DNA of 17,920 nt from NCBI GenBank assembly GCA_947259315.1, contig CAMYLR010000024.1:125234-143153 (forward strand). Direction: 5' to 3'. The stretch comes from an uncultured Gemmatimonadales bacterium (GTDB lineage: Bacteria > Gemmatimonadota > Gemmatimonadetes > JACCXV01 > JAHWKZ01). A program made the translations under genes and the position numbers. Under the pieces are notes generated by a model. The model was given only the letters and a program-made list of their open reading frames with translations. It was not told where the DNA came from and made no database searches. This document shows positions 15,982 through 17,920 of the stretch, one piece after another. Positions within the stretch are counted from its first letter, which is position 1. Every line of letters begins with the position of its first letter.

Positions 15982-16058
15982 GGGCGGCTAGCTCAGTTGG
16001 TTAGAGTGCCTGCTTGACATGCAGGAGGTCACTGGTTCGAATCCAGTGCCGCCCACCA
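15982..16058 (+). tRNA. tRNA-Val (anticodon GAC)
   Basis: The 77-base gene has acceptor stem GGGCGGC/GCCGCCC, discriminator A and encoded CCA (16056-16058). The D arm is TAGCTCAGTTGGTTAGAG. The anticodon stem CCTGC/GCAGG with loop TTGACAT gives anticodon GAC at 16016-16018. The T arm is CACTGGTTCGAATCCAGTG. Its 3' portion is repeated exactly at 16798-16829. Confidence 0.97.
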
Positions 16059-16060
16059 TG
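16029..16060 (+). repeat. Direct repeat, left copy (tRNA-Val 3' end)
   Basis: This is a perfect 32-base repeat of 16798-16829. It covers the whole T arm, the 3' acceptor strand, CCA and two bases beyond. Identity stops at both edges (G versus C before, A versus T after). It is the usual kind of attachment core used by tyrosine integrases at tRNA genes. Confidence 0.95.
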
Positions 16061-16067
16061 ACGATTT

Positions 16068-16751
16068 CTACAGCAGCTCCAAGAAAAAGGCGGTGCCCAT
16101 GAGCACCAAGATCACGGCGCTCACCCGGGGCAGATAGGGGAGCAACTCTTGGATCCGATTTTCGAAACGGGTTAACGTCAGAATCGAAAGCAGCGTCAGC
16201 GCGAGGATACTTCCAGCAACAGCGAGCGCATAGATCCCCATCACCGTCCAGCAGCTTAAGCGACCGGCGCACAACGCGATAATCGCAAACTCTTCCTCGT
16301 GGGCGAACCCGAGGGCAAACGCAAAGACGGTGATCGCCCAAAGGCCACCTCGGTGCTGGAGCTCCGAATCGCCAGCGCCGCTCTTCCGGCGATGACCAGG
16401 ATGGTCAACAGAGCCGGTGTGCCTATGGCCGTGACCGTGAGCAGGCTGGAACCACTGGTACGCTCCCATAGCGATGAGAACGAGCCCGGCGGCTTGCATG
16501 GCGTAAGGGAGCTCGGTCACGCTGAGCCAACGATTCACCAGAACGAAGCCCGCTACGACGGCGAAAGAACTGACCAGATGAGCGCCGCCGATGATCAGGC
16601 CCGCAAGAACCCCATGCGCCCAACGCCGATGACGGTTGAGGGCATAAACGGCGGCCACCGGCCAGCCATGTCCGGGTTCTAGACCGTGCAATAGGCCGAT
16701 CGACACCGCCGTCGCATACACTGACCCCGTGGCACCGAAAAGAGGAATCAT
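16068..16751 (-). CDS. NicO/RcnA-like nickel-cobalt transporter
   Basis: The 227-residue membrane protein has about six helices. The first contains GLLHGLEPGHGW (H22, E25, H28), the signature region of the RcnA/NicO family (GLHGLEPGHS in RcnA; HX4DH in NiCoT permeases). A long polar loop around residues 105-125 is histidine-rich (HGHGHRHTGSVDHPGH), as expected for Ni/Co binding. FALGFAHEEEFAI forms a second conserved patch, and the last helix ends SAVILVLMGTAFFLELL. Direction of transport (uptake or efflux) is uncertain; the LEPGH motif leans to the efflux-type subgroup. The start is ATG 16751 with no strong ribosome site. By eye the gene is less GC-rich than its neighbours. It lies between two copies of the tRNA-Val 3' end and converges on that tRNA, its stop 9 bases away. 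Confidence 0.82.
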   Translation of the reverse strand: MIPLFGATGSVYATAVSIGLLHGLEPGHGWPVAAVYALNRHRRWAHGVLAGLIIGGAHLVSSFAVVAGFVLVNRWLSVTELPYAMQAAGLVLIAMGAYQWFQPAHGHGHRHTGSVDHPGHRRKSGAGDSELQHRGGLWAITVFAFALGFAHEEEFAIIALCAGRLSCWTVMGIYALAVAGSILALTLLSILTLTRFENRIQELLPYLPRVSAVILVLMGTAFFLELL

Positions 16752-16797
16752 CGTCTAACGAGTCTATCGCACCCGACCGGTCGAGACACTCGCGTAC

Positions 16798-16829
16798 TCA
16801 CTGGTTCGAATCCAGTGCCGCCCACCATG
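16798..16829 (+). repeat. Direct repeat, right copy (tRNA-Val 3' fragment)
   Basis: The second copy of the 32-base tRNA-Val 3' end lies 46 bases upstream of the NicO-like start codon on its far side. There is no D arm or anticodon arm before it, so it is not a functional tRNA gene. Confidence 0.95.
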
Positions 16830-17003
16830 TACAACCGCGTGTCGTTCGCTTCCTGCTGATAGATGTTCCTCTGTAGGATCTAAAACTTTTAGTTGTACCC
16901 TGTTTGTTTCAGACCAGTTACACCGTGCGTAAGGCTTTCACCCACGGTACGACGGGTTCTTCCCCACAGACACCCTTGTTTTAGTCGGGATACGGTTGAA
17001 GTA
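16830..17003. other. AT-richer non-coding spacer after the right repeat
   Basis: No credible gene is present. The stretch is visibly poorer in G+C than the rest (for example AAAACTTTT near 16882-16890). It contains two short inverted repeats: GTACAAC (16829-16835, starting at the last base of the tRNA repeat) with GTTGTAC (16892-16898), and ACCGTG (16922-16927) with CACGGT (16943-16948). It may be remnant DNA of an element or simply the leader/promoter region of the lipoprotein gene. Confidence 0.5.
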
Positions 17004-17070
17004 ACAACCCCGACAAGGGCAAACCCGGCCAAAGCCGGGGACACTCGGCTCGGTGGTCAGCCGGGTCTTT
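17004..17070 (+). promoter_or_regulatory. Candidate GEMM-I-like (cyclic dinucleotide) riboswitch
   Basis: The leader contains CGACAAGGGCAAACC (17011-17025), a close match to the conserved 5' core of GEMM-I RNAs. A hairpin with a 4-base CAAA loop follows, then GGGGAC (compare GGGACGC). A second hairpin (CUCGGCU/AGCCGGG) follows, ending in AGCCGGGUC (17059-17067), like the GEMM 3' core AGCCGGGUU. CCCG (17009-17012) can pair with CGGG (17062-17065) to close the fold. Deviations are a CAAA rather than GNRA loop, GACAC instead of GACGCAAAGCC, and a short second arm. It lies 72 bases before a lipoprotein gene, and exported-protein genes are common GEMM targets. A small hairpin (CGGGC ACA GCCCG, 17095-17107) could be part of the expression switch. 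Confidence 0.42.
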
Positions 17071-17138: not shown

Positions 17139-17920
17139 ATGAGACGCGTGCCGCGGTTACTCGCTCTCCCACTGTTTCTTGCGCTGGTCACCTGTCAACA
17201 GAGCCCCTTGGGAACCGACCAGAGTCCTTTTGGCTCTGGGCCGTTAATCGGGGCGGTTGCCTCGGGCAAGATCGCGTTCTCAACGGACCGCGACGGGAAC
17301 AATGAGATCTATGTAATGGACGCCGACGGATTGAATCCGACCCGCCTCACCAACAATCCCGCAAGCGACCTCGGGCCGGCCTGGTCGCCCGACGGCACCA
17401 AGATCGCGTTTTGGACCACCCGCGACGGCAACGCCGAGGTCTACGTCATGGACGCCGACGGCTCGAACCAGACCAGACTCACCACTGATCCGGCAACAGA
17501 CCGTGACCCCACCTGGTCGCCCGACGGCACCAAGATCGCGTTCACCGCGTTCCGCGTTCCGGATGGGGAGATCTACGTCATGGACGCCGACGGGTCGAAC
17601 CAGACGAATCTCACCAATCATCCGTCACTGGAACGTGACGCCAGCTGGTCGCCCGACGGCTCAAAGATCGCGTTCACCTCGGCTCGAGACGGGGGGGGGA
17701 ACATCGAGGTCTACGCCATGGACGCCGACGGGTCGAGCCAGACCAGACTCACCACTGATCCGGCAACAGACATTAACCCCACCTGGTCGCCCGACGGCAC
17801 CAAGATCGCGTTCACCGCGTTCCGCGACGGCAACGCCGAGGTCTACGTCATGGACGCCGACGGGTCGAACCAGACCAGACTCACCACTGATCCGGCAACA
17901 GACCGTCCCTACAGCTGGTC
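17139..17920 (+). CDS. Beta-propeller (TolB/PD40-like) repeat lipoprotein, 5' part
   Basis: The frame opens at ATG 17139 (GGAGG at 17130-17134) and runs past the window edge, at least 260 residues. The N-terminus [19 protein letters not shown] is a lipoprotein signal with C19 as the lipidation site (LVTC lipobox, slightly unusual Thr at -1), followed by QQ, compatible with outer-membrane sorting. From residue 44, TolB/PD40-type blades repeat: [28 protein letters not shown]...WSPDG. Starts are 17268, 17400, 17532, 17664 and 17802 (fifth cut). Blades 1-3 are 132 bases; blade 4 is 138 because of a nine-G run (17691-17699) that adds two Gly. Blades 2 and 5 are 83/84 identical over 84 bases, showing recent duplication or conversion. 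Such propellers usually bind proteins or glycans at the cell surface. The ligand is unknown. Confidence 0.88.

Follow-up and report, generated by a model that had tools for sequence, protein, structure and literature searches.

Accretion of elements at RNA genes

Additive genomic islands anchored at tRNA genes and the accretion of cis-mobilizable elements (CIMEs) are already known. The additive flexible genomic islands found at tRNA-Lys in 'Candidatus Methylopumilus' range from 330 bp to 42 kb and carry 1-63 genes, many of unknown function (PMC10872708). In Dehalococcoides, tandem islands located downstream of a single RNA gene, ssrA, have 20-bp copies of that gene's 3' end at their borders, and an integration module occurs in 16 of 31 (PMC3146451); about half are thus devoid of it. 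CIMEs are bounded by att sites, lack integration and transfer genes and are stacked in tandem at one target (PMC5704250), while tycheposons, as outlined in a report on other islands, are tRNA-anchored, cargo-carrying elements of 4-200 kb with a tyrosine recombinase (PMC10872708). Here, we analysed a stretch of 17,920 nucleotides (the window, G000:C24:125234-143153) from a draft metagenome-assembled genome (MAG) of an uncultured Gemmatimonadales bacterium (G000; 2.40 Mb, 33 contigs, 95.8% complete), in which an intact tRNA-Val(GAC) is followed by a single-gene unit encoding a NicO-like membrane protein. This unit is the one nearest to the tRNA in a stack of at least five closed units that works like the known systems.

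As with the Methylopumilus islands, the G000 units are additive, are delimited by tRNA-tail repeats and can be as small as one gene (PMC10872708). Unlike these islands, they hold one or two genes, a common riboswitch leader and paired ends recur in several of them, and the remnants decay with distance; apart from an Xer-like pair, no integrase was found in the genome. The tandem arrangement at an RNA 3' end and the frequent lack of an integration module recall the Dehalococcoides ssrA islands; the module of the latter, however, works with serine recombinases and is present in the same arrays, whereas no dedicated integrase was found in any genome of the family studied here. Similarly, the stacked, att-bounded units without integration genes resemble CIMEs and the accretion of integrative and conjugative or mobilizable elements (ICEs, IMEs). 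Known CIMEs are decayed ICEs or IMEs, whereas the present units are compact, contain one or two genes between paired ends and bear no trace of a parent. With tycheposons, as far as that outline describes them, the units have in common their anchoring at a tRNA and the carriage of cargo, but they contain no tyrosine recombinase and measure only 0.7-2.1 kb. Likewise, no IntI was found, the sole tyrosine recombinases being the Xer-like pair (attC covariance models were not run), and the sites between units are tRNA 3' ends that decay with distance. The locus thus falls outside integrons, clusters of attC sites lacking an integron integrase (CALINs) and tycheposons, the recombinases of integrons and tycheposons being absent. 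New to this stack are its consistently small units, the lack of a dedicated integrase in the sampled genomes of the order, and the shared ends with a riboswitch-bearing leader.

Organization of the stack at tRNA-Val(GAC)

The features that define the stack are as follows; L009 denotes G000:C24:140500-151163, and a window position equals the L009 position + 15266.

15982-16058, plus strand: tRNA-Val(GAC), the insertion target, intact
16029-16060, plus strand: first 32-nt core, which spans the T-arm to CCA plus TG and forms the NicO unit's left junction
16068-16751, minus strand: gene for a NicO/RcnA-like membrane protein of 227 aa, the only one in the putatively youngest unit
16798-16829, plus strand: second 32-nt core, displaced tRNA 3' end (s2), junction between the NicO unit on its left and unit 2 on its right
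L009:1532-1563, same orientation as the tRNA: s2, 32 nt, the copy already seen in the window
L009:3712-3763, same orientation: s3, 52 nt, 100%
L009:5590-5642, same orientation: s4, 53 nt, 98%
L009:7687-7718, same orientation: s5, 31-32 nt, two changes
L009:9506-9519, same orientation: s6, 14 nt, one mismatch

Two copies of the 32-mer TCACTGGTTCGAATCCAGTGCCGCCCACCATG, at 16029-16060 and 16798-16829, are 100% identical; they start 769 bases apart and enclose 737 bases. The local score of 32, against a maximum of 10 in ~2,100 shuffled windows, is far above chance, so that the coordinates and the shuffling confirm what an earlier reading of the window from its letters alone (the sequence-only reading) had noticed: two perfect copies of the tRNA-Val(GAC) 3' end around one gene. 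The sole convincing open reading frame (ORF) between them, at 16068-16751 on the minus strand, is intact and conserved in relatives, and its stop codon sits 9 bases from the tRNA end. As in tRNA-targeted integrative elements, the unit is thus flanked by an intact tRNA and, on its far side, by a direct repeat of the tRNA 3' end. No integrase gene lies inside the unit, and no recombinase gene was found in the NicO interval or anywhere else in the stack. Insertion at the tRNA 3' end, as proposed in that reading, is further supported by the similarity with the congeneric genome G001, which stops at this very point; the proposed absence of an integrase holds for the unit and, save for the Xer-like pair, for the genome. 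The same reading described the gene as less GC-rich than its neighbours, which is true but only slightly so (GC 60.7% against 61-68% in nine neighbours; GC at third codon positions 69% against 62-83%).

A search of the genome with the window gave three further places along the same contig, which a closer scan extended to four remnants past the window edge. The window therefore truncates the feature, and a reader limited to it could not see these remnants because they lie further along the contig. From the tRNA outward, the order is tRNA, NicO unit, s2, unit 2, s3, unit 3, s4, unit 4, s5, unit 5, s6 and unit 6, with intervals of 739, 2148, 1826, 2044 and 1787 bases. The remnants past the window are 1.8-2.2 kb apart and increasingly decayed, and each closes a one- or two-gene unit. 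At no step outward does the agreement of the remnants with the tRNA increase (32, 32, 32, 25.5 and 11.5 from s2 to s6), s4 having one extra mismatch in its upstream part. Tandem units split by copies of the target end, as in additive islands and accretion stacks, are thus found in G000 with five remnants and in the related genome G004 with two. The view of the NicO unit as a lone, unusual cassette, taken in the sequence-only reading, is rejected on account of the additional remnants, and a similar insert exists at tRNA-Val(TAC).

Antisense ORFs run across tRNA tails at window positions 15988-16341 and at L009:5499-5786, both on the minus strand, and yield the spurious peptides GGTGFEPVTSC... 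and GGRHWIRTSDLLRVKQALNR. Such peptides provide a hint for finding tRNA remnants in protein databases.

Shared ends, leaders and cargo

Three further features of unit 2 lie within the window:

16830-17042, plus strand: leader (left end A) of unit 2, in which 165/213 columns (77%) agree with the corresponding end of unit 3
17009-17066, plus strand: degenerate riboswitch-like element of the cyclic di-GMP (c-di-GMP)-I-GGC type, 27.2 bits (cut-off 59)
17140-17920, plus strand, running off the window: first part of the cargo gene of unit 2, with PD40 beta-propeller repeats and a lipoprotein-like signal

Units 2 and 3 also have a common right end, R (145/179 columns identical, 81%), so that the ends A and R are paired around unrelated cargo. 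The sites combine right and left ends as N/A, R/A and R/B, which reflects modular joining at the site; block duplication does not yield this mix. Furthermore, the tRNA part between the flanks is identical at 52/53 positions while the flanks are 81% identical (P ~2e-4 at the flank rate).

The cargo gene of unit 2 ends with TSP3 repeats near L009:3473. Unit 3 codes for a predicted secreted protein of 423 aa, unit 4 for two proteins of 283 and 314 aa, and unit 5, on the minus strand, for a K+ channel with TrkA domains; unit 6 is interrupted by the contig end. The genes of units 2 and 3 are intact, the units themselves are compact, and nothing in them was recognised as a fragment of an integrase. 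A run of 71 N at L009:2655-2725 (G000:C24), within the PD40 gene of unit 2, marks an assembly gap at a ~132-bp repeat array.

The c-di-GMP-I-GGC riboswitches of units 3 and 6 score 63.9 and 68.5 bits, above the Rfam gathering cut-off of 59, and the leader of unit 4 is related but diverged. As leaders with this riboswitch, or a degenerate one, precede predicted secreted proteins in units 2, 3, 4 and 6, the cargo of these units is probably under c-di-GMP control. Nothing relevant on c-di-GMP riboswitches in tRNA-anchored islands was found in the open literature. The leader was rejected as a general mobile end, the matches listed elsewhere in the class being to the riboswitch core or to tRNA. Among 394 genomes of the class, the right end R has only trivial matches outside G000.

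Comparison with relatives

Loci around tRNA genes were sampled as stretches of genome; the relatives compared, all of the same family, were G001, of the genus of G000, and G002 and G004, both of the genus g2. DNA similarity between G000 and G001 (83% identity) halts at the tRNA 3' end, on a G001 contig with just 58 bases left. Between tRNA-Val(GAC) and the orthologous bactofilin gene, the two g2 genomes differ widely, the interval being ~0.9 kb in G002 against 16.1 kb in G004, where it contains other genes and two tRNA-Val remnants. The nearer remnant, ~+2.6 kb from the tRNA, matches at 25/25 and is better preserved than the farther one at ~+5.1 kb, whose 45 nt include a gap and match at 93%. 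Moreover, the nearer one has the tRNA allele of G004 itself, GAGTCCTGTG, and not GAATCCAGTG, which is the allele of the G000 tRNA that the G000 remnants resemble. Remnants matching the allele of their own genome are as expected of displaced local tRNA ends. The comparison of relatives that the sequence-only reading had proposed shows a site filled differently in G002 and G004; at the position of the NicO unit itself, the G001 contig comes to an end.

Probable insertion at a second tRNA and remnant lengths

In G000, tRNA-Val(TAC) bears a comparable insert:

L010:3977-5268 (G000:C11:61976-63267): whole region of the one-gene insert at tRNA-Val(TAC)

The tRNA gene (L010:3977-4053) is followed, after 128 bases, by a 29-nt remnant of the Val(GAC) type. 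The insert carries a single methyltransferase gene (L010:4358-5029, minus strand), and a copy of the tRNA-Val(TAC) 3' end (21/21 nt, ~L010:5233-5253) lies 1.18 kb downstream, just before a MOSC gene. No remnant was found at tRNA-Val(TAC) of G002 and G004 within 1.2-2.0 kb of downstream DNA, and the flanks of these two genomes agree at 95.6% over ~1.05 kb. In G004 (C41), ~1.66 kb downstream of this tRNA, a riboswitch-core-like sequence was noted (L214:4189-4282) whose DNA match is 77% and whose score does not exceed the Rfam gathering value.

Among the 13 G000 tRNA genes with at least 2 kb of downstream sequence, only the two Val genes have clear remnants of their own. A marginal match to its own 3' end was also seen ~7.2 kb downstream of tRNA-Arg(CCG) (L201, G000:C5), with a score of 12.5 against a shuffled maximum of 10. 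The remnants of the two species form two length groups, 45-53 nt (from the anticodon arm) and 21-32 nt (from the T-arm or T-loop). Since integrases prefer particular tRNA sublocations, these groups would fit two recombinase specificities.

The NicO-like protein

The label NicO/RcnA given to the cargo protein in the sequence-only reading is reasonable in view of its HGLEPGHG motif, its His-rich loop and a predicted multi-helix structure (mean predicted local distance difference test score 78.5), and weak with respect to database models. No Pfam match was obtained, even at E<=1, and the match to NCBIfam PRK10019 (E 4e-4, 19.5 bits) is far below the curated cut-off of 195. No solved structure or fold was significantly similar, the best being CcdA (E 0.09). 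Among aligned homologues, the motifs HGxEPGHGWPVA and HEEEF are invariant. As the match to RcnA is only weak, we propose from family resemblance that the protein probably moves a divalent metal (Ni/Co).

The gene is present only in G000 and G002 among 61 genomes, and the G002 homologue (L059:8972-9586, G002:C96) lies at a different place with no tRNA tail seen nearby; its distribution is therefore sporadic. Both proteins fall in one group (support 100/85), next to haloarchaeal sequences and with long branches. They are 58-61% identical, against 71% for the major facilitator superfamily gene adjoining the tRNA.

Recombinases and origin of the units

Two PF00589 proteins are encoded in G000, one XerC-like in a trmFO-hslVU operon and one XerD-like on contig C6; a plain tally gives one or two tyrosine recombinases in each of the five further genomes of the order. 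No serine recombinase or resolvase (PF00239) was found in the five genomes of the family, on which account such an enzyme was rejected as the agent. The exact 29-mer of the site is absent from the viral contigs, and among the matches listed by blastn against phages and plasmids only the tRNA part of the query is covered. The direct repeats GTGCTAGT of the right end were considered as an arm-site signature of an integrase and rejected, their viral matches falling mostly in coding repeats of low complexity, near none of which an integrase or a tRNA was found.

Successive site-specific insertions of small integrase-less elements at the 3' end of tRNA-Val(GAC), with the NicO unit as the latest visible layer, are in our opinion highly probable. 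The identical stretch carried by an element would recombine site-specifically with the 3' part of the tRNA, thereby joining the element to the chromosome. The element would supply a new 3' end, so that the tRNA stays intact, and the old 3' end would be pushed outward as a remnant. Repetition at the same tRNA would leave the newest unit nearest and older remnants farther away and more decayed; both the order of decay and the local alleles are what repeated insertion at a tRNA predicts. The recombinase, which we infer to be a tyrosine integrase acting in trans, would come from a helper now absent, such as a phage or an integrative element whose integrase is specific for tRNA-Val. Supply by a helper seems most likely, and loss of integrases from the units by deletion less likely, because the units are compact with paired ends.

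Several observations weigh against successive insertion. Viral contigs, phages and plasmids revealed neither a helper integrase nor an attP that would match, and a draft MAG such as the present one could lack an integrase or have it in an assembly gap. For the NicO unit, no excision product or exact empty site was found, the G001 contig extending only 58 bases past the tRNA. The G002 interval contains 0.9 kb missing from G004 and is therefore near-empty rather than empty. Finally, the grouping of the NicO-like protein with that of G002 gives no sign of recent long-distance import.

Alternatively, the units could be larger integrative elements (ICEs, prophages or islands) stripped to one or two genes and att sites before their accretion, an origin we hold as possible but doubtful. 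CIME accretion is documented (PMC5704250), decay is visible in the older remnants, and the Dehalococcoides islands without an integration module provide a precedent. Nevertheless, both ends (A and R) survive in the compact units 2 and 3, whose genes are intact and in which no integrase fragment was recognised, and the NicO stop codon almost touches the tRNA. Neither a parent ICE or IME nor an integrase remnant of the units was found. A living integron-like system, in which a trans-acting recombinase (the Xer pair or another resident enzyme) shuffles single-gene cassettes at tRNA-Val 3' ends, appears improbable. Units with a single gene, different cargo between paired ends, junctions of modular make-up and the use of two tRNA-Val genes would all agree with it, and the Xer-like enzymes are the only tyrosine recombinases present. 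Yet the older sites decay and are evidently unmaintained, the right end was not found in the 393 other genomes of the class, and IntI is absent. The targets of Xer enzymes are dif sites; the sites of the stack are unlike them, no dif search having been made. We give equally little credence to the wider proposal that Gemmatimonadota hold a family of minimal integrase-free cassettes, with paired ends and in several cases a c-di-GMP riboswitch of their own, that share the tRNA-Val 3' end as recombination site and are moved in trans, by the Xer pair or an unseen helper, so that a tRNA gene would underlie an integron-like system for collecting genes.

Even less probable is a local tandem duplication of the tRNA 3' part, leader and riboswitch followed by divergence or replacement of the genes. 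It would explain the recurrence of the site with its leader in units 2, 3, 4 and 6 and the similar right ends of units 2 and 3, but neither the mixing of right and left ends between sites nor the unrelated cargo. In addition, the tRNA parts are far better preserved than the flanks, the second tRNA has the same anatomy with other cargo, and the interval varies from 0.9 to 16.1 kb within one genus.

With successive insertion as the preferred explanation, the stack lets small gains of genes at a single tRNA be read in temporal order, in a phylum whose mobile DNA has been little described. Should one-gene units that have paired ends and a riboswitch of their own be mobile and move in trans, tRNA genes could act as capture sites for single genes that arrive with their regulation, with no need of an integron; if not, the locus clearly exemplifies insertion in series followed by decay. 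The tRNA-tail repeats mark layers that gene callers overlook.

Riboswitches and contig ends elsewhere in the genome

Further c-di-GMP-I-GGC riboswitches were found at L025:346-457, L026:3828-3940, L026:4684-4797, L027:139-230 and L027:673-747. They lie on short contigs or near contig ends, and several assembly breaks therefore adjoin riboswitch-led genes. The chromosomal far side of the G000 stack was not located via bactofilin or dipeptidyl peptidase IV (DPP-IV) genes. The left end of contig C11 (L028:1-1280) starts inside a HAF-repeat/DUF3466 gene, followed by an R-like terminator with the motif GTGCTAGTAAGTGTGC and then by a tRNA-tail-like end, GTGCCACCCACCA; this contig end may be the far side of the stack. 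In L028 the 10-mer TAGCTATTCC is found 5' of the tail, but at remnants s5 and s6 it is found on the 3' side.
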